The notes: generated from the letters alone by a model not told the origin. Positions 1,355 through 11,056 are shown, counted from the first letter of the stretch. The stretch is 64,000 bases of DNA from Gaiellaceae bacterium (GCA_026002995.1 BPGK01000001.1:1612001-1676000), one strand, 5' to 3'. Made by a program: numbers and translations.

Positions 1355-1755
1355 TGCTCCGCGACGAGGGCGCGGTAGGCATCCGCGTCGAGGAGGTCGT
1401 CCGCCTCGTCCGGATCGGAGATGCGGATGCGGATCAGCCACCCCTCGCCGTAGGGGTCGTCGTTGACGATCTCGGGCTCCTCGACCGCCTTCGCGTTCAC
1501 CTCGAGCACCTCGCCCGAGAGCGGCGCGATCACGTCCGAGACCGCCTTCACGGACTCGATCTCGCCGTAGGGAGCGTCCTTGGCGACGGTCGTTCCGACC
1601 TCCGGCGGCTCGTAGTGGACGAGCTCACCGAGGGAGTCCTGGGCGAACCAGGTGATGCCGAGCACGGCTTCGTCGTCCTCGATCCGGGCCCAGTCGTGCT
1701 CGGGGTGGTAGAGGAGGTCGTCGGGGTAGCTCTCGCTCGCTGGCACGTAACTCAC
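1351..1755 (-). CDS. gcvH: Glycine cleavage system H protein
   Basis: 134 aa, the normal length for this lipoyl carrier, which shuttles the aminomethyl intermediate between P, T and L proteins. The lipoylation motif GEIESVKAVSD places the modified lysine at about residue 70. The typical HPEHDWARIEDD segment lies near the N terminus. The GTG start at 1755 overlaps the gcvT stop (GTGA), and its own TGA overlaps the gcvPA GTG. The longer open frame that runs into gcvT is a shadow. An acidic C-terminal tail (DPDEADDLLDAD) is present. Confidence 0.96.
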   Translation of the reverse strand: MSYVPASESYPDDLLYHPEHDWARIEDDEAVLGITWFAQDSLGELVHYEPPEVGTTVAKDAPYGEIESVKAVSDVIAPLSGEVLEVNAKAVEEPEIVNDDPYGEGWLIRIRISDPDEADDLLDADAYRALVAEQ

Positions 1756-2804
1756 GCTCCCTTCCGGTAGATCGGCTTGGACACGACGCGGGCACGACGT
1801 GGCTTCCCGCGCACGTCGATCACGAGCTCCGCCCCTTCGCGGGCCGAGGCGGCCGGGACGTACCCGAGCCCGATTCCGCGGTCGAGCATCGGGGAGTGCG
1901 TCCCCGAGGTGACCTCCCCGCCTCCGAAGATCGCCATGCCTTTGCGGGGAATCGCCTTCTCTTCCATGACGAAGGGGACGAGCCTCCGCTCGGGCCCGTG
2001 CTCGGCGATCCGGCGGAGCTCGGCGACACCCGTGAAGTCCGTATGGAGCGCGCACGCCCACTCGAGCCCGGCCGAGATCGCGTCGGTCTCGGGGGTGATG
2101 TCCGCGCCGTGCAGCGGATAGCACACCTCGAGGCGGAGGCTGTCACGGGCACCGAGCCCGCACGGGACGGCGCCCCGCTCGAGCACCCGGTCCCAGAGCG
2201 CCGCGGCGTCCTCGACGGCGCAGCAGAGCTCGACGCCTCGCTCGCCCGTATACCCCGTGTACGAGACGAGCACTTCGATGCCGTCGAGCTCGCCCATCCG
2301 GTGGGTAAACGGCTTCGCGTCGGGAAGACCGAGCCGCTCGAGGGAGCGAGGGCCCTGGACGGCGACGAGCGCGTACTCGTCGGAGGCGTCGCGCACCTCC
2401 GTCCCGCGCGGCTCGCGCTCCTTCAGCCACGCGTAGGCGGTCGCCCGATTGGACGCGTTCGCGATGACGAGGTACTGCCCGTAGGCGAAGCGGTAGAGGA
2501 TCACGTCGTCGACGATCCCGCCCCGCTCGTTCGTGATGAGCGTGTACTGCGCCCGGCCGTCCTCGAGCCGGTCGACGTCGTTCGAGAGGACGGACTGGAG
2601 GAAGGCGCCGGCGGTGGGTCCGTCGACGTGCAGCTCGGCCATGTGCGAGACGTCGAAGGCGCCGCAGTCGGCGCGCACGGCCCGGTGCTCGGCGATGACG
2701 CCCTCGTACTGCACGGGCATCTCGTAGCCTGCGAACGGCACCATGCGCGCCCCGAGCTCGAGGTGCCGCGCGTAGAGCGGCGTGCGCGAGAGGGTCGCCT
2801 CCAC
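1752..2804 (-). CDS. gcvT: Aminomethyltransferase (glycine cleavage T protein)
   Basis: 350 aa. It transfers the methylene group from aminomethyl-GcvH to tetrahydrofolate and releases ammonia. Seen: N-terminal RTPLYARHLELGARMVPFAGYE and the folate-pocket region ERGGIVDDVILYRF near residue 90. First gene of the gcv operon. The GTG start has no Shine-Dalgarno but has TAGAGT (2812-2817) 7 nt upstream, so a leaderless mRNA is likely. Without the restriction island, ftsZ would lie only 66 bp upstream on the same strand. Confidence 0.96.
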   Translation of the reverse strand: MEATLSRTPLYARHLELGARMVPFAGYEMPVQYEGVIAEHRAVRADCGAFDVSHMAELHVDGPTAGAFLQSVLSNDVDRLEDGRAQYTLITNERGGIVDDVILYRFAYGQYLVIANASNRATAYAWLKEREPRGTEVRDASDEYALVAVQGPRSLERLGLPDAKPFTHRMGELDGIEVLVSYTGYTGERGVELCCAVEDAAALWDRVLERGAVPCGLGARDSLRLEVCYPLHGADITPETDAISAGLEWACALHTDFTGVAELRRIAEHGPERRLVPFVMEEKAIPRKGMAIFGGGEVTSGTHSPMLDRGIGLGYVPAASAREGAELVIDVRGKPRRARVVSKPIYRKGA

Positions 2805-2849: not shown

Positions 2850-2874
2850 GGCGACCCGCCGCGACTCGGCTCAG
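2850..2874. repeat. Left 25-bp direct repeat of the R-M island
   Basis: Perfect copy of 5772-5796. Both copies read GGCGACCCGCC followed by GCGACTCGGCTCAG, and the flanking bases differ on both sides. This copy retains the ftsZ stop triplet (TCA on plus, 2871-2873) but no ftsZ sequence beyond it. It marks the gcvT-side end of the inserted unit. Confidence 0.93.
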
Positions 2875-2918
2875 CTCGACCAACACGCTCAGGTCTGTCC
2901 GACGCGGAAACTAAGGTA

Positions 2919-2932
2919 CGAACGTATGTTCC
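2919..2932. promoter_or_regulatory. SOS (LexA/DinR) box upstream of the methyltransferase
   Basis: CGAACGTATGTTCC contains GAAC-N4-GTTC and fits the Gram-positive SOS consensus CGAACRNRYGTTYC at every position. It lies 31 bp before the GTG of the methyltransferase and overlaps the proposed -35 (TTCCCA, 2929-2934). LexA binding there would block the promoter. LexA binding itself is an inference; a GAAC-N4-GTTC match can arise by chance in a window of this size. Confidence 0.55.
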
Positions 2933-2957
2933 CATCATCATCCGCGCCCTCTACGAT
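2929..2957 (+). promoter_or_regulatory. Leaderless promoter of the R-M operon
   Basis: -35 TTCCCA (2929-2934), 17-bp spacer, -10 TACGAT (2952-2957), then 6 nt to the GTG at 2964. There is no Shine-Dalgarno. The -35 overlaps the SOS box. Confidence 0.5.
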
Positions 2958-2963
2958 CACTTC

Positions 2964-4157
2964 GTGCTCTCCGGCCTAGCACATACCCGATCGTCTGCCG
3001 GGCGGGAGCAGGGCCTCTCCGTTGTCGGGTTGTTCGCCGGCATCGGCGGCATCGAGGTCGGCCTCCATCAGGCGGGACATCGAACGGAACTCCTGTGTGA
3101 GATCGATCCAGCGGCGCAGCGGGTGCTGCGCACGCACTTTCCGGGGGTCCCTCTCATCGCCGACATTCGCGAACTGGAATCGATCCCCGACGCTGGGATC
3201 TGCGCCGCGGGATTCCCGTGCCAAGACCTGAGTCAGGCGGGGCGCACGGCGGGCATTCGGGGTGCCAACTCCGGTCTCGTAGCCGAGGTCTTCCGTCTCG
3301 TCGAACGAGCAGATCCTCTCTGGCTCATCCTCGAGAACGTCCCCTTCATGTTGAGGCTCGATCGCGGCGAAGCGATGCGATTCTTAACCCGCTCCCTCGA
3401 GAGACTCGGCTTCAGCTGGGCGTACAGAGTTGTCGACACACGCGCGTTCGGACTCCCGCAGCGGCGACAGCGTGTGGTTCTCCTTGCCTCTCGCTCTCAG
3501 GATCCTCGACAAGTGCTCTTCGTGGGGAATGAGCCCGAACCCGTGTGGCCACACCACTCGGAAGTCGCATGTGGCTTCTACTGGACAGAGGGAATCCGCG
3601 GCCTCGGATGGGCTGTGGACGCCATCCCGACTCTCAAGGGCGGTTCGACGATCGGGATCCCGTCCGCACCGGCGATCAGGTTCCCGGACGGCCTGATAGC
3701 GACGCCGGATCTCCGCGATGCCGAAAGACTTCAGGGCTTCGAGGCCGACTGGACTGCGCCCGCCTCCGACAATCAACGCAGGGAGGGCTCTCGGTGGAGG
3801 TTGGTCGGGAACGCTGTCAGCGTGCCCGTCGCGTACTGGCTGGGCACCCGGCTGCGAGATCCTCAGCCGTACGACGGATCGCAAGACGAATCACTCCCTC
3901 CGGGAGCGCCCTGGCCCAAGGCAGCCTGGGGCGCAAACGGCGTCGTTTGTCGAGCGAACCTGTCCGCGTGGCCCGTCTGCCATGAGTATCACCACCTTGC
4001 AGAGTTCCTTCGCTTCGACCCACTGCCTCTCTCGGAACGCGCGACCCTGGGATTCCTTCGACGCACCCGGCGGTCATCACTCAACTTCCCTGCAGGATTC
4101 CTAGACGACGTCGCCGCCCATCTGGCAACGGTTCAACCGGAGCCGCTCTTCGCATAG
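2964..4157 (+). CDS. DNA (cytosine-5-)-methyltransferase, Dcm-type
   Basis: 397 aa. It methylates C5 of cytosine in a specific DNA site using SAM. Motif order is canonical: motif I FAGIGG (about 24-29), motif IV GFPCQDLSQ with catalytic Cys86, motif VI ENVP (124-127), motif VIII QRRQR (166-170), a target-recognition region (about 180-275), and motif X GNAVSVPVA (282-290). A C-terminal extension of about 100 residues has no recognised domain. The GTG start was chosen from the leaderless promoter. GC is visibly lower than the surroundings: a 60-base sample at 3301 is 57% GC against 78% at 1201. It protects DNA from the nuclease encoded next; recognition site unknown. Confidence 0.95.
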   Translation: MLSGLAHTRSSAGREQGLSVVGLFAGIGGIEVGLHQAGHRTELLCEIDPAAQRVLRTHFPGVPLIADIRELESIPDAGICAAGFPCQDLSQAGRTAGIRGANSGLVAEVFRLVERADPLWLILENVPFMLRLDRGEAMRFLTRSLERLGFSWAYRVVDTRAFGLPQRRQRVVLLASRSQDPRQVLFVGNEPEPVWPHHSEVACGFYWTEGIRGLGWAVDAIPTLKGGSTIGIPSAPAIRFPDGLIATPDLRDAERLQGFEADWTAPASDNQRREGSRWRLVGNAVSVPVAYWLGTRLRDPQPYDGSQDESLPPGAPWPKAAWGANGVVCRANLSAWPVCHEYHHLAEFLRFDPLPLSERATLGFLRRTRRSSLNFPAGFLDDVAAHLATVQPEPLFA

Positions 4158-4219
4158 CAGCGGCGCTCAGCGCGCGAGGGGCAGGAGCACGAGGCTCCGA
4201 GTCGTAGAGAGTTAGGGCC

Positions 4220-5059
4220 GTGGACGGGCCGGATATCATCGTGTCGAGCCTGTCCGTCCCGCAGCCGCGCGGGCCGTCGAAGACGCCGTGGCAGTACCAC
4301 TCCCGTTCCGACCTCCACAGCAAGGTCGCGTGCTGGGCGGTTCTGTTCGACCTCCTGCAGCACAGCGCGCTCATGCGCAGTCACGCCAGGAGCGGCAAGA
4401 TCGTCTTCGGTATCAACCACGAGTTGCGCGACTTCGCAACCGCAAGAAAGAAGGTGCTCGACCTCGTAGTCGCACGACCCTCGGGGCCGACTACGAAGGA
4501 AACGCTCGCCGATCTCGCTCGGCGCTACCGTGTCGTCCTCGACAGCGCACAGGCGGCGAGACTAGCGACCTTGCCAGAGCTGCGGCGCGCGCCGGTCGGC
4601 GCGGTGCTCATGGCTCTCGAAGCCAAAGCGGCGATGACCGAACACGTCAAGGCGCTCCCTCGCCTGTACGACGAGCTCAACTCAAGTCACCAGACAATCC
4701 ATGGAGCGTCACGGCAGGCGCTCGCCGTCGGACTGGTGATGATCAACGCCGCGTCGACGTTCGTGAGCCCTGATCTCAACAAGGTTCCTGGAGCGGAGGT
4801 CGTGCTGTCGAAGCACTCACAACCGGCTGCGGCCGCTGCGGTTGTTGCGAAAGTCCGCGAGATCCCTCGCCGCACAGCGAGCGCGACGGAGGGCTACGAC
4901 GGCCTCGGCATCATCGTGATCTCCGCGATCAACGATGGCACGACTCCGGTATCCCTCGTCACGGCGCCACCGGCGCCACCGCCCGGCGACATCTTCTACT
5001 ACGACAACATGATCACGCGCGTCGCAAACGAGTACGACACGACGTTCAAGTCGATCTGA
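4220..5059 (+). CDS. Putative restriction endonuclease of the R-M module
   Basis: 279 aa, lying 62 bp after the C5 methyltransferase and 24 bp before vsr, the classic slot for the cognate restriction enzyme. No named family is certain. A PD-(D/E)XK-like active site can be proposed from KKVLDLVVARP (Asp81) and ALEAKAAMTEH (Glu134, Lys136). The region ALPRLYDELNSSHQTIHGAS recalls uncharacterised phage-associated nucleases, from memory only. A proline-rich patch (APPAPPPGD) precedes a short C-terminal segment. GTG start at 4220; a GTG at 4241 is also possible. Lower GC than the host genome. No TANNNT leaderless signal is seen, so it probably shares the methyltransferase transcript. Confidence 0.6.
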   Translation: MDGPDIIVSSLSVPQPRGPSKTPWQYHSRSDLHSKVACWAVLFDLLQHSALMRSHARSGKIVFGINHELRDFATARKKVLDLVVARPSGPTTKETLADLARRYRVVLDSAQAARLATLPELRRAPVGAVLMALEAKAAMTEHVKALPRLYDELNSSHQTIHGASRQALAVGLVMINAASTFVSPDLNKVPGAEVVLSKHSQPAAAAAVVAKVREIPRRTASATEGYDGLGIIVISAINDGTTPVSLVTAPPAPPPGDIFYYDNMITRVANEYDTTFKSI

Positions 5060-5071
5060 GGTAGATCGTCC

Positions 5072-5077
5072 TAGACT
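5072..5077 (+). promoter_or_regulatory. Leaderless -10 of vsr
   Basis: TAGACT lies 6 nt before the GTG of vsr, so vsr could also be transcribed separately from the two upstream genes. Confidence 0.45.
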
Positions 5078-5083
5078 GGCGAC

Positions 5084-5521
5084 GTGGCCGAAGGAGGCAC
5101 GCCAGCCGCTTCCTCGCCGGACGCACTGCGGCGGATGAAGTCGCAGCGTCAACGCGATACCGCCTCCGAGGTTGCTCTTCGATCCCTGCTTCATCGCCGT
5201 GGGTTGCGCTTTCGGGTTCACTATCCGTTACCAGGCCTGCGACGCCGCGCCGACATTGCGTTCCCGCGACTTCGAATCGCCGTCTTCGTCGACGGGTGCT
5301 TCTGGCACGGCTGCCCTCACCACGGCACCTGGCCCAAGCGGAACGCGAACTGGTGGCGCGAGAAGATCGCAGCCAACCGCCAACGAGACGCTGACACCAA
5401 CGCACGACTGGCAGAGCAGGGATGGATTGTCATTCGCGTGTGGGAGCACGAAGCGACGGAAACGGCTGTCTGCGCGATCACGGAGGCTGTTCGAGAGCGC
5501 GCGCTCCGAGAACGCCCCTGA
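5084..5521 (+). CDS. vsr: Very short patch repair endonuclease (Vsr)
   Basis: 145 aa. It nicks 5' of the T in T:G mismatches created when 5-methylcytosine deaminates, limiting C-to-T mutation at methylated sites. Seen: RRADIAF with the catalytic Asp at about 57, FVDGCFWHGCPHH (68-80), NWWREKIAANRQRD (89-102) and RVWEHE near 119. These are the hallmarks of the family. Vsr genes usually accompany C5 methyltransferases, as here. The GTG start is supported by the leaderless -10; an internal ATG at 5135 is possible but would trim the N terminus. Last gene of the island, convergent with ftsZ. Confidence 0.95.
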   Translation: MAEGGTPAASSPDALRRMKSQRQRDTASEVALRSLLHRRGLRFRVHYPLPGLRRRADIAFPRLRIAVFVDGCFWHGCPHHGTWPKRNANWWREKIAANRQRDADTNARLAEQGWIVIRVWEHEATETAVCAITEAVRERALRERP

Positions 5522-5584
5522 CCGCCGTGTCCCACAACCTCCTCCGCCCGGCAACAGGCGACGCGGTGCGACGCTGAGGTCGGT

Positions 5585-5610
5585 GTCGTCGATCGTGCGT
5601 CATCGACGAC
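5585..5610. terminator. Inverted repeat after vsr
   Basis: GTCGTCGAT (5585-5593) and ATCGACGAC (5602-5610) form a perfect 9-bp stem with an 8-nt loop, 64 bp past the vsr stop. There is no T-tract on either strand. It could end both the island and ftsZ transcripts, or be an unrelated binding site. Confidence 0.4.
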
Positions 5611-5771
5611 CGTAGTCCTGTCATACGACGGCGATTCAGCTCAAACCGGGTCCGCTCCGTCAGGATCGGGGTGCCGTCCGATCACCTTTCGAAAAGGCCT
5701 CCGCGTTCGGCGCATCGCTGCACGCGGGTGGCTGCTAGGCATTAGTCCCGGCTCCTGACGACCTTCCCAGG

Positions 5772-5796
5772 GGCGACCCGCCGCGACTCGGCTCAG
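5772..5796. repeat. Right 25-bp direct repeat, overlapping the ftsZ stop
   Basis: Perfect copy of 2850-2874. It contains the ftsZ stop codon (5793-5795), the last base of the final Asp codon (5796) and 21 bp downstream. The inserted unit (island plus one repeat copy) is 2,922 bp. The 250 bp between vsr and this repeat hold only the inverted repeat at 5585-5610. Confidence 0.93.
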
Positions 5797-6863
5797 TCGT
5801 CGTCCTTGAGGAAGCTCGGGATGTCGATGTCGACGTCGGAGACGCTCGGGGCGGCGAAGGCGGGCGCCCGCTCGCGCTCGCCCCCCGCAGCCGACTCGAC
5901 CCGCTTCCGGCGGGGACGGCCGCCGAAGCCCGTCGCGATCGCGGTCACGCGCACGTCGTCGCCCATCGCCTCGTCGATGACGGCTCCGAAGATCACGTTC
6001 GCGTTCGGATCGGCGGCGCTCGTGACGACCTGGGCGGCCTCGTCGACCTCGGCGAGACCGAGGTCGGGGCCCCCGGTGATGTTGATGAGGATCCCCGTCG
6101 CGCCGTCGAGCGTCGTCTCGAGGAGCGGCGACGAGATGGCCATCCTCGCCGCCTCGACGGCGCGGTTCTCGCCGTGCGAGACGCCGATGCCCATGAGCGC
6201 CGATCCGGCGTCGCGCATGATCGTGCGCACGTCGGCGAAGTCGAGGTTGATGAGCCCGGGCACCGTGATCAGGTCGGTGATGCCCTGGACACCCTGGCGC
6301 AGGATGTCGTCGACCATGCGGAAGGCGTCGGTCACCGGCGTCGAGCGCTCCACGACCTGGAGCAGGCGGTCGTTCTCGATGACGATGAGCGTGTCGACGC
6401 TCTCGCGCAGCGCCTGGATTCCCTGCTCGGCCTGGTCGGCGCGAAGCTTCCCCTCGAACGCGAACGGCCGGGTCACCACCCCGACCGTGAGCGCGCCGAG
6501 CTCGCGGCCGATCTCCGCGACGACCGGAGCAGCCCCCGTCCCGGTTCCTCCACCCTCGCCCGCGGTGACGAAGACCATGTCCGCGCCCTTGAGAGCCTCC
6601 TTCAACTCGTCCCGACTCTCTTGTGCCGCGGCGAGCCCGAGCCGCGGGTCCGCGCCCGCGCCGAGCCCGCGCGTCGCCTGGGAGCCGATGTGGATCTTGA
6701 CGTCGGCGTCCGCCATGACGAGCGCCTGAGCGTCGGTGTTGACCGCGATGAACTCGACCCCGGCCACGCCGGCGTCGACCATCCGGCTCACGGCGTTCGA
6801 GCCGCCCCCGCCGACGCCGACCACCTTGATGACGGCGAGGTAGCTCCCTAGCTGATTGCTCAT
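5793..6863 (-). CDS. ftsZ: Cell division GTPase FtsZ
   Basis: 356 aa. This tubulin-like GTPase forms the division ring. Seen: [13 protein letters not shown] at the N terminus, the T4 loop GEGGGTGTG near residue 95, the [11 protein letters not shown] region, a short variable linker and the C-terminal tail peptide DIDIPSFLK that binds partners. The ATG at 6863 has a good Shine-Dalgarno (GAGGTGA); the 32-codon upstream extension is rejected. Last gene of the dcw operon. ftsA is absent, as usual in Actinobacteria. The stop codon lies inside the right repeat, so the insertion did not change the protein. Confidence 0.98.
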
Positions 6864-6976
6864 GTCTCGACTCACCTCAGGTTGAAGCTCGCATCGAGCG
6901 TCCGACTGTCTCGCTGCCCATTCGCCACCGAGAGTAGGCGTCCTCCTCGGTCTTGTCAATCGTGTTGCGAGCCATG

Positions 6977-7002
6977 AGTCTAAACCTCAACTTAAGAGTT
7001 GA
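6977..7002 (-). promoter_or_regulatory. ftsQ-ftsZ spacer: possible ftsZ -10 and inverted repeat
   Basis: The 128-bp spacer contains TCAACT-TAAG-AGTTGA (6987-7002), a 6-bp inverted repeat spanning the ftsQ stop, followed on the minus strand by TAGACT (6977-6982), a TANNNT -10 candidate with no clear -35. An extra ftsZ promoter here would be usual for Actinobacteria. Confidence 0.35.
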
Positions 7003-7810
7003 AGGTGCTCGAAACCGGCCGCTCGGGAACGCTGAGGTCGAGGTAGAGGGTTCCGGGATCGAGGAGCGGGATCACCTTCGCGGCGACCGCGAGCTTGAGC
7101 ATGACGTCGCTCGCCTCCCCCAGGCGCAGCTCGAGCCCGTTTCCGAGCACGAGCGTGAGCTGCTCGTCGACGATTCGCGCAGAAGCGATCTCCCGCCGCA
7201 GGCCCACCTCGCGCGCGAGCACGAGCGCGCGCGCCGCCGGCAGCGCCTCCGCCGGGAGCAGACGCCCGGCGGCGACGGGGACGTCCTTCGCGAGCCACAG
7301 CCGCGGCAACGAGCGCGCGGTCCCGCGCTCGAGCTCCCGAATGACCATTCCCGACGCCGCCACGAGCCACGCCGAGAGCCCCGTTCGGGCGACCGCGACG
7401 GGGCGCTCCGCGGCCACCTTGACGACGAGCGTGTGCGGAAAGGCGCGGTCGACCGCGACCCCGGCGACCGCCGGCAGCGCGCGGACATCCCGCTCGACGG
7501 CGGCGGGATCGAGAGAGACGAGGCTCGTGCCGACGAGATCGGCGGTCAGCCGCTCGACGTCACGGATGACCGGCTCGGGCGCCGTGCCCTCGACGCGCAC
7601 GGTCTCGACGGCGAAGAGCGAGGACGCGAGCGCGAGCCAGTAGACGCCCAGCGCGGCGACGAGCACTGCGAGCCCGAGCAGGAGCGAGCGGCCGGAGGGG
7701 ACGACCCGTGCGAGAGCCTGGCGAGCTCCGGCGTCACGGGGAAGCGGGACGACGACGCTTCCCGTCTGTCCGCGCCGGCGCGCCCCGCGCTCGGATCGTC
7801 CCCCGGCCAT
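6992..7810 (-). CDS. ftsQ: Cell division protein FtsQ
   Basis: 272 aa, single-pass membrane protein linking early and late divisome proteins. A basic cytoplasmic tail (residues 1-42) precedes one TM helix (about 43-66, LLLGLAVLVAALGVYWLALA), then the POTRA domain starting FAVETVRVEGT and the FtsQ beta domain. FtsQ normally works with FtsL and FtsB; FtsL is encoded upstream in this operon. It lies 57 bp after murB and 128 bp before ftsZ, and ends with TAA rather than the TGA common in this operon. Confidence 0.92.
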   Translation of the reverse strand: MAGGRSERGARRRGQTGSVVVPLPRDAGARQALARVVPSGRSLLLGLAVLVAALGVYWLALASSLFAVETVRVEGTAPEPVIRDVERLTADLVGTSLVSLDPAAVERDVRALPAVAGVAVDRAFPHTLVVKVAAERPVAVARTGLSAWLVAASGMVIRELERGTARSLPRLWLAKDVPVAAGRLLPAEALPAARALVLAREVGLRREIASARIVDEQLTLVLGNGLELRLGEASDVMLKLAVAAKVIPLLDPGTLYLDLSVPERPVSSTFNS

Positions 7811-7867
7811 GCGACCCGTTTCGCCACCCGACGCGTCGATCCTGCGATCGGCCCCGGGTGGAGCACG

Positions 7868-8761: not shown

Positions 8762-9972
8762 CGTGCCAGCCCCTCAACGACGGCGCGAGCGACCCGCCAG
8801 GGCTCCCCGACGCCGAGGGTCACCACGACGTCTCCCTCGCGCGCCCAGCCGAGGACGATGCGCGCTGCATCCTCGAGCGTCGGCGACCAGGCCGCACGCA
8901 CGCGCCGCGGCAGGGCGTCGAGGACGAGCTTCCCGGTGACGCCGGGCCGCGGCGCATCGCGCGCGCCGACGAGGTCGGTGACCACGACCGCATCGGCGAG
9001 GCCGAGGGCCTCGCCGAGCTCCCGGTGGAGGTGCCGCGTTCGCTCGTAGACGTGGGGCTGGTAGACAGCGACGAGCCGAGCCGGCGCCAGCGAGCGGGCG
9101 GTGCGGAGCGCGGCCTCGATCTCTCCCGGGTTGTGCGCGTAGTCGTCGTACACCCGGACTCCGCAGACGTCGCCGACGAGCTCGAAACGGCGCCCCACGC
9201 CCGTGAACCGCGCGAGCGCCCGGGCAGCCTCTTCTCGCGGCACGCCCGCGAGCTCGAGCGCCGCGAGCGCGGCAGCGGCGTTCAGGCGGTTGTGCTCCCC
9301 CGGTACGGCGAGCTCGACGTCTGCCGGCTCGAGCTCCCACCCACGAACGGCGTGCGGCGCGCGCGCGAGCCAGTCGCGGAAGAAAGCGTCGAGCTCGGCT
9401 CGGGACGCGTACACGGCGTGGTGGTCGAGGTCGACGTTCGTGACGACGGCGATGCGGGGACGGAGGGCTGCGATCGATCGATCGGACTCGTCCCCCTCGA
9501 CGACGAGCCAGCCCGCACCCGCGCCCGCGTTCCCTCCGAGCTGAGGGACGACGCCTCCCACGATCCACGAGGGATCGTTCCCCACCTCGCGGAGCACGAA
9601 TGCGATCATCGCCGTCGTCGTCGTCTTGCCGTGGGCGCCGCCGACGACGATCGACGGCCGGAGCGCAACGAGCTCCGCGAGGAAGTCCGCGCGCGAGCGT
9701 CCGTCGGCGCGGCCGACGTGCGCGGCGGAGACGACGACCTCGAACCCGGGCGGGGGCGTGGGCACGGGGCCGAGGTCGATGGTGACACCTCCGAGCGTCT
9801 CCATGAAGATCGTCTCCCGGAGATCCCAGCCGGCGACCTCGGCCCCCCACGCGCGGGCGATGTTCGCGTACGCCGAGAGCCCAGCCCCTCCGATGCCGAC
9901 GAAGTAGATGCGGCGGCCGGCGAGCGGCCCCGCGCCCCCAGGCGCGTCGCTACCGCGCTCAGGCGCGGGCAC
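8758..9972 (-). CDS. murC: UDP-N-acetylmuramate--L-alanine ligase
   Basis: 404 aa, about 50-80 residues shorter than most MurC. It adds L-Ala to UDP-MurNAc with ATP. Seen: N-terminal Rossmann start FVGIGGAGLSAYANIA, P-loop GGAHGKTTTT, VEGDESDRS, and the C-terminal domain start YDDYAHNPGEIEAALRTAR. All three Mur-ligase domains are present. The shortening appears to be in the central domain after the FFRDWLARAP segment. The GTG start at 9972 overlaps murG by 14 nt; the 30-codon upstream extension lies in murG and is rejected. Confidence 0.94.
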   Translation of the reverse strand: MPAPERGSDAPGGAGPLAGRRIYFVGIGGAGLSAYANIARAWGAEVAGWDLRETIFMETLGGVTIDLGPVPTPPPGFEVVVSAAHVGRADGRSRADFLAELVALRPSIVVGGAHGKTTTTAMIAFVLREVGNDPSWIVGGVVPQLGGNAGAGAGWLVVEGDESDRSIAALRPRIAVVTNVDLDHHAVYASRAELDAFFRDWLARAPHAVRGWELEPADVELAVPGEHNRLNAAAALAALELAGVPREEAARALARFTGVGRRFELVGDVCGVRVYDDYAHNPGEIEAALRTARSLAPARLVAVYQPHVYERTRHLHRELGEALGLADAVVVTDLVGARDAPRPGVTGKLVLDALPRRVRAAWSPTLEDAARIVLGWAREGDVVVTLGVGEPWRVARAVVEGLAR

Positions 9973-11056
9973 GGCGCCTCGCCTTCCTCGAGCGCGCGAG
10001 CGCGACGAGCTCGTCTGCGATCTCCTCCGCCGCTTCCGGACGCGCGAGCGCGCGCATCGCATCGCTCATCGCCCGAAGTCGCTCCGGGTCGGCGAGGAGC
10101 CCGGCCACGACCTCGGGCACGCGGGGAAGCTCGGACTGCGGGACGACGACCGCGCCCCCTCCTCGCTCGAAGACGCGCGCGTTGAGCATCTGGTGGTCGG
10201 CGGTCGCATGTGGGTAGGGGACGAGAACCGCAGGCGTTCCCGCCGCGGCGAGCTCCCAGACGGTTCCTCCCGCACGCGAGATCGCGAGGTCCGCCGCGGC
10301 AAGCACGTCGCCGAAGCGATCGGTGCTCGCGAGGAGCACGTACTCGGGCCGTGAGACGCGGGCTCGGAGCTCTTCGTAGTCACGCTCGCCAGCGATGTGG
10401 AGCACGGCCGGCCCCGCCTCCCCCCAGGCCTCGACGGCGAGGTCGTTCAGCGCCCGCGCGCCGGCGAGGCCACCGAAGACCGCGAGCACCGGGGCACCCT
10501 CCGGCAGGCCCAGCGCCTGTCGCGCGCTCGTGCGGTCCGCGCCGAGGTGGGCGCGCGGGATCGGTCGGCCGACGACGCGGTACTTCGGGGGCCGTCGGCC
10601 CTCGATCTCGTAGGCGAGGAAGACCCGGTCAGCGAGCGGCGCGGCGAGACGGTTGGCGAGACCGAGGTGGGCGTCCGCCTCGGTGAGCGCCGCCGGAATC
10701 CCCCGCAGCCGGGCCGCGAGAACCATCGGCCCGGCGACGTAGCCGCCTCCACCGAGAACGACGTCCGGCCGACGCCGCGCGAGGATCCTCGCGCAGGCGA
10801 ACGGGGCCCGCAGGGCGCGCAGGAGCGCCCGTGCGAGCTCGAGCCCCGGACGCCGCGGGAGCCCAGAGATGGGAAACGTGTCGAGCTCGAGCCCCGCCTC
10901 AGGCACCAGACGCGACTCGACGCGTCCGGTCGACCCGGCGAACGTCACCGTGACGCCCCGCTCCCGGAGCGCCTCGGCGACCGCGAGCGCGGGTCGGACG
11001 TGCCCCGCGGTCCCTCCCGCCGCGATGAGGCACACGAGCTCGGACGACCGTTCCAT
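9959..11056 (-). CDS. murG: Lipid II synthase, GlcNAc transferase MurG
   Basis: 365 aa, GT28 family. It adds GlcNAc to lipid I at the inner face of the membrane. Seen: AAGGTAGHVRPALAVAEAL at residue 12, GGGGYVAGP near 100, and in the C-terminal domain SRAGGTVWELAAAGTPAVLVPYPHA followed by DHQMLNA. The C terminus is basic (RSRKARRRARA). The ATG start lies inside ftsW, giving a 158-nt overlap in another frame. Confidence 0.96.
   Translation of the reverse strand: MERSSELVCLIAAGGTAGHVRPALAVAEALRERGVTVTFAGSTGRVESRLVPEAGLELDTFPISGLPRRPGLELARALLRALRAPFACARILARRRPDVVLGGGGYVAGPMVLAARLRGIPAALTEADAHLGLANRLAAPLADRVFLAYEIEGRRPPKYRVVGRPIPRAHLGADRTSARQALGLPEGAPVLAVFGGLAGARALNDLAVEAWGEAGPAVLHIAGERDYEELRARVSRPEYVLLASTDRFGDVLAAADLAISRAGGTVWELAAAGTPAVLVPYPHATADHQMLNARVFERGGGAVVVPQSELPRVPEVVAGLLADPERLRAMSDAMRALARPEAAEEIADELVALARSRKARRRARA

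Follow-up and report, generated by a model that had tools for sequence, protein, structure and literature searches.

PluTI, reportedly described by Khan et al. in 2010 (cited in PMC10273834), is said to be a putative mobile restriction-modification (R-M) element, a small unit without a recombinase of its own, and the published R-M systems inserted with a long target duplication are reportedly mainly from Helicobacter. In Bacillus subtilis, ydiO-ydiP, which encode the BsuMI methyltransferases, belong to the LexA regulon. R-M units inserted with a long duplication of their target are credited to Nobusato et al. (2000) by PMC3031569 and PMC3874152, and by the latter also to Furuta et al. (2010). 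Caulobacter crescentus vsrA is a solitary, SOS-inducible gene for a Vsr-like nuclease; its LexA box is a GTTCN7GTTC repeat, and it is induced under DNA damage (PMC12907096). Here, we describe an R-M unit located between ftsZ and gcvT of a Gaiellaceae bacterium, within a stretch of 64,000 nucleotides (GCA_026002995.1, BPGK01000001.1:1612001-1676000; referred to as the window). The unit encodes a C5-cytosine DNA methyltransferase (M), a candidate restriction endonuclease (R), and a Vsr endonuclease, is bracketed by perfect 25-bp direct repeats, and has a predicted LexA operator at its promoter. Its insertion is of an already known kind, insertion with long target duplication, and gives a clean case of recombinase-free R-M movement of this kind in an uncultivated-type actinobacterium. 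Kobayashi's "insertion with long target duplication" shares with the window an R-M complex lying between target direct repeats, the lack of a transposase, and recognition by comparison of related genomes. The window differs from those cases in its host, an actinobacterium with Ku, in its target, the ftsZ stop codon, and in the Vsr gene and predicted LexA operator carried aboard.

The two copies of the 25-mer GGCGACCCGCCGCGACTCGGCTCAG (2850-2874 and 5772-5796) match without a mismatch, as the original prediction had stated, and because the bases differ on all four flanks, the duplicated stretch measures exactly 25 bp. No exact direct repeat in the window is longer, the runner-up having 19 bp, and in 6 kb of DNA of this composition about 1e-6 such repeat pairs would arise by chance. 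The source genome is one 2.62-Mb contig, 97% complete with 0.15% contamination and probably assembled from a metagenome. Within it, the 25-mer is found at these two sites only, even when up to 3 mismatches are allowed. The right copy consists of the last base of the final ftsZ codon, the TGA stop (5793-5795, minus strand), and 21 bp downstream, so 4 of its 25 bp are in ftsZ and 21 are in the spacer. No recombinase gene was found inside the unit by gene calls and a domain search, in agreement with the original prediction. Coordinates of all features are collected in Table 1.

Table 1. Features of the inserted unit and its borders, in window coordinates
Feature	Position	Strand	Basis or remark
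Left copy of the 25-bp target duplication, gcvT side	2850..2874	+	Exact repeat search
Right copy of the 25-bp target duplication; ftsZ stop codon and 21 bp downstream	5772..5796	+	Exact repeat search
Inserted unit, 2,897 bp	2875..5771		64.7% G+C; not present between ftsZ and gcvT in 7 genomes of the same genus
Predicted LexA (SOS) box CGAACGTATGTTCC; core GAACN4GTTC at 2920-2931	2919..2932		Motif search; has ACGAACGTATGTTC in common with the lexA box of the same genome
-10-like hexamer TACGAT	2952..2957	+	Sequence comparison; 20 nt past the LexA box, 6 nt ahead of GTG
M, C5-cytosine DNA methyltransferase, 397 aa, GTG start	2964..4157	+	Pfam PF00145 (DNA_methylase) 1.1e-45; TIGR00675
R, candidate type II restriction endonuclease, 279 aa	4220..5059	+	Motif residues, link to M, weak fold matches
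Vsr, T:G mismatch nicking endonuclease, 145 aa	5084..5521	+	TIGR00632 9.6e-35; PDB Vsr 2.3e-16
ftsZ, intact	5793..6866	-	TIGR00065 2.7e-129
gcvT, intact; ftsZ neighbour when uninterrupted	1752..2804	-	PF01571, PRK00389

We compared the junction with same-genus genomes, all of different species, of which seven have a readable ftsZ 3' side. In all seven, ftsZ adjoins gcvT, and the gap is 50 to 181 bp long in six of the seven. If the unit is taken out of the window together with one copy of the repeat, what is left is a 66-bp gap, the length given in the original prediction, which lies inside this range and can be aligned with the same-genus gaps. The window is therefore the derived state, and its arrangement arose by insertion with target duplication. 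Of the expectation that relatives would show an uninterrupted junction with one copy of the 25-mer, the junction was found and the 25-mer was not: the spacer sequence is different in every same-genus species, and no match to the 25-mer with up to 3 mismatches occurs in the other same-genus genomes searched. The seventh genome (G009) has a gap of 734 bp, in which an unrelated GrpB-like (nucleotidyltransferase-type) frame runs in the opposite direction and is not flanked by repeats (locus L082 on contig C36, about 9375-10140). Because this frame occupies the same gap, the ftsZ-gcvT gap tolerates inserts. The description of a cell-division gene as the target was thus overstated, since the ftsZ protein is unchanged and the gap also took a GrpB-like gene in another species.

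A feature that the original prediction overlooked is the predicted LexA operator at the unit promoter. CGAACGTATGTTCC matches CGAACRNRYGTTYC, which we take to be the Gram-positive/actinobacterial LexA box, and its core is the only GAACN4GTTC in the window. It has 14 consecutive bases in common with the box of the genome's own lexA, so that, as for members of the LexA regulon, a box of the host's type stands at a promoter. Genome-wide, there are 23 GAACN4GTTC cores (9 for a reversed control), among them boxes just upstream of lexA, uvrA, a UvrC-like exonuclease gene, and imuB. The closest homologous unit (locus L038, described below) has the same layout of box, 20 nt, hexamer (TAGGAT), 6 nt, and GTG, and the box-promoter spacing is kept although the surrounding upstream DNA does not align. 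The M transcript is likely leaderless, and the spacing would fit such a transcript with LexA sitting over the -35 region.

Our preferred reading, to which we give a probability of roughly 60%, combines a recombinase-free, non-site-specific capture of the R-M/Vsr unit at a staggered break with LexA repression of the M promoter. A self-contained type II R-M/Vsr unit would have been gained horizontally and joined into the short, tolerant ftsZ-gcvT gap, which would have been opened by a staggered break or by two opposed nicks 25 bp apart. The single-stranded ends would have been filled in and ligated to the arriving unit; Ku-dependent end joining is a plausible route, since the genome has Ku. Such joining would produce the 25-bp duplication and leave the ftsZ protein unchanged, at a site not chosen by its sequence. 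The unit would then be retained since R would cut cells losing methylation. Damage, either lesions or R cutting at unmethylated sites, would inactivate the LexA predicted to repress the M promoter, and M, followed by R and Vsr, would be raised. An R-M system must be kept from killing the cell while methylation is still behind newly repaired DNA, and LexA control of M would be a simple feedback to that end. We favour the view that the box would chiefly restore methylation and stop self-restriction, because in convergent relatives, with R facing Vsr-M, it is present before M-Vsr only. In the window, M, R, and Vsr have the same direction, and R may rise too; a stress-raised restriction programme is conceivable.

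Several observations weigh against this reading. A length of 25 bp also suits the core site of a recombinase. The single-copy empty site is a reconstruction, from relatives of the same genus only, whose spacer is too diverged to show a single 25-mer. The closest homologous unit has palindromic repeats at its flanks where a plain duplication of the target would be expected, which means that the mode of insertion varies. Finally, a canonical LexA box near M is missing from 10 of the 25 homologous loci, and in 7 actinobacterial loci (L077, L078, L105, L107, L110, L111, and L112) the box lies inside an apparent N-terminal extension of M.

The original prediction had also proposed integration in trans at an att site formed by the 3' end of ftsZ. 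In this rival reading, the 25-mer would be the attL/attR core, and a tyrosine recombinase would have acted in trans or been lost since. The repeat is perfect, has a typical core length, and overlaps the stop codon of a gene, and the genome has three tyrosine-recombinase matches; these, however, are about 0.77 to 0.96 Mb away from the unit. Integrases using gene ends depend on conserved sequence, but most of the 25-mer is in a spacer unconserved even within the genus. The genome has no third copy, and no cargo other than the R-M/Vsr unit was found bracketed by the 25-mer, the sole 3-mismatch match (in G046) being away from ftsZ and gcvT. The locus thus has neither the internal integrase gene nor the conserved att core reused by other cargo that mark tyrosine-recombinase integrative elements. 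In addition, the closest homologous unit is not at ftsZ, and by our own estimate a random 25-bp duplication sparing both genes would overlap the stop codon about one-quarter of the time (about 25 of 90 permitted positions). We consider site-specific integration rather unlikely.

The closest homologous unit is found in Thermoleophilia ACT1 (genome G037, JAHDVS010000004.1), a member of the same family but of another genus. The gene order is the same, the identities to the window are 76% for M, 85% for R, and 75% for Vsr, and the unit is located after a tRNA-Asp gene. Two palindromic repeats of about 58 bp, GGGTCAGGTCTTGCATC...GATGCAAGACCTGACCC, bracket it at 4593-4650 and 7287-7345 of L038, and the right one provides the end of the vsr frame. 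In this respect PluTI resembles the G037 homolog, and the window copy, which is without terminal inverted repeats, differs. The G037 unit would suit a passenger carried between small palindromic repeats, similar to repetitive extragenic palindromes or miniature inverted-repeat transposable elements, by a transposase in trans, all the more as no further exact copy of the palindromes was found in the G037 genome. At the window borders, however, there is no such palindrome, terminal inverted repeats do not rise above shuffled controls, and the nearest member of the palindrome family in the window's own genome, a half-site with one mismatch, lies almost 1 Mb from the unit. For the window, we therefore regard a passenger origin as quite improbable. 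A direct alignment of the left and right inner border regions ranked at the top of 200 shuffles, though it is gap-rich. A palindrome related to that of L038 is present in G007. In other homologous loci (L039, L040, L041, L043, L063 to L065, and L076 to L078), flanking direct repeats are just 10- to 11-bp matches at chance level. The plasmid units of Sinorhizobium mexicanum strain ITTG R7 (L063) and Rhizobium phaseoli strain N841 (L064) have a 2,981-bp block (4877-7857) in common, with 90% identity, sharp bounds, and different plasmid contexts; no repeats of at least 12 bp flank it.

We surveyed LexA-type boxes in 25 loci, namely, an initial set of 14 loci with M, one of them the window, and 11 further actinobacterial homologs fetched as a test; the loci are partly non-independent, since L063/L064 and L078/L112 are close relatives. 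A box was found just upstream of M in 15 of the 25. Of the 11 test loci, 6 have a GAACN4GTTC a short distance ahead of the region homologous to M; in 5 of these 6, as in the earlier loci L077 and L078, it lies in the apparent extension of M. In five loci (L043, L044, L063, L064, and L065), it takes the form of a GAACN7GAAC (= GTTCN7GTTC) direct repeat 37 to 112 bp before M. This is the exact LexA consensus of C. crescentus (PMC12907096), and four of the five loci are from alphaproteobacteria of the Caulobacteraceae or Rhizobiaceae, L065 being an IMG/VR contig with no host assigned. The boxes could still be fortuitous and the R-M system an ordinary constitutive one, given the short 8-bp core, the 10 loci without a box, and the 7 in which it lies in apparently coding sequence. 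In these 7, the stretch is conserved and reads as coding, with third-position changes, while GAAC and GTTC never vary and substitutions are confined to the 4 bases between them; because the stretch reads as an N-terminal extension of M, these boxes are ambiguous. In the same 7 loci, an invariant TGTAGTTT precedes an internal start of M by about 7 nt, possibly an internal leaderless promoter or alternative start. Against fortuity, the chance of a canonical box of the right type is only about 0.15 to 0.7% per 150-bp upstream region, every GAACN4GTTC of the first 14 loci lies within 150 bp before M, the alphaproteobacterial loci have the Caulobacter form, and the promoter spacing is identical in the window and L038. 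Chance occurrence of the boxes is quite improbable as an explanation.

In the literature searched, we found no description of a LexA operator on this R-M/Vsr family, and its SOS control, which the boxes suggest, would be new. B. subtilis ydiO-ydiP are a partial precedent, since LexA controls C5 methyltransferase genes of an R-M system there, but the R gene is unrelated, the phylum is another, the locus is in a prophage, and Vsr is lacking. C. crescentus vsrA is solitary and has its box inside the gene, whereas in the window the box is at the promoter of an M-R-Vsr operon (PMC12907096). Tentatively, these loci may represent an R-M/Vsr family of Actinomycetota and Pseudomonadota that includes an undescribed restriction-enzyme family and is built into the SOS response: each host's type of LexA operator would stand before M, breaks would raise methylation and stop suicide, and the units would spread without a recombinase at staggered breaks. 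The recurrence of the boxes across phyla, in alphaproteobacteria as the locally known type, makes LexA control of M testable in culturable Rhizobium and Phenylobacterium relatives.

An assembly artefact, in which a unit from another replicon or organism was joined to the chromosome via the 25-mer, would suit a probably metagenomic assembly and a unit lower in G+C content than its surroundings, but it is very improbable with a single contig of such completeness and low contamination, a unit G+C content that is still high, and a 75 to 85% identical homolog within the same family.

All three genes of the unit are opposed to ftsZ and gcvT, as had been predicted together with their identities, which profile matches bear out for M and Vsr and which stay at candidate level for R. 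The predicted lower G+C content also held, with 64.7% for the unit and 71.3% for the window, though the 57% and 78% originally quoted came from small samples; the G+C content at third codon positions is likewise below that of ftsZ and gcvT. M belongs to the Dcm/HhaI superfamily of C5 methyltransferases, with a match to PADLOC MTase_II (2.6e-143) and assignment to the HhaI family by phmmer. Vsr, linked to M in the window, is present in many but not all homologous loci.

R has no family match in Pfam, NCBIfam, or PADLOC. Its homologs align along the whole length with 49 to 85% identity, and D81 and E134-A-K136, a PD-(D/E)XK-like set, are among the invariant residues. The AlphaFold model has a mean pLDDT of 81, and a fold search of PDB gave SgrAI as the best match, with Bse634I near the top; the matches are weak (Foldseek E of 0.025, TM below 0.3). 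R is similar to these CCGG-type restriction endonucleases in size and in its motif, but no sequence similarity to them was detected. From its sequence and model, R is a candidate restriction endonuclease and not a proven one. No homologs were found in phages, and four distant ones (L066, L079, L080, and L081; 35 to 39% identity) have no M homolog detected nearby. R and a homologous C5 methyltransferase adjoin in 25 loci from at least two phyla (the homologs include L039 to L043, L063, L064, and L102 to L112). R homologs on RefSeq plasmids are labeled "hypothetical protein," and we regard R as a candidate for a restriction-enzyme family that lacks annotation.

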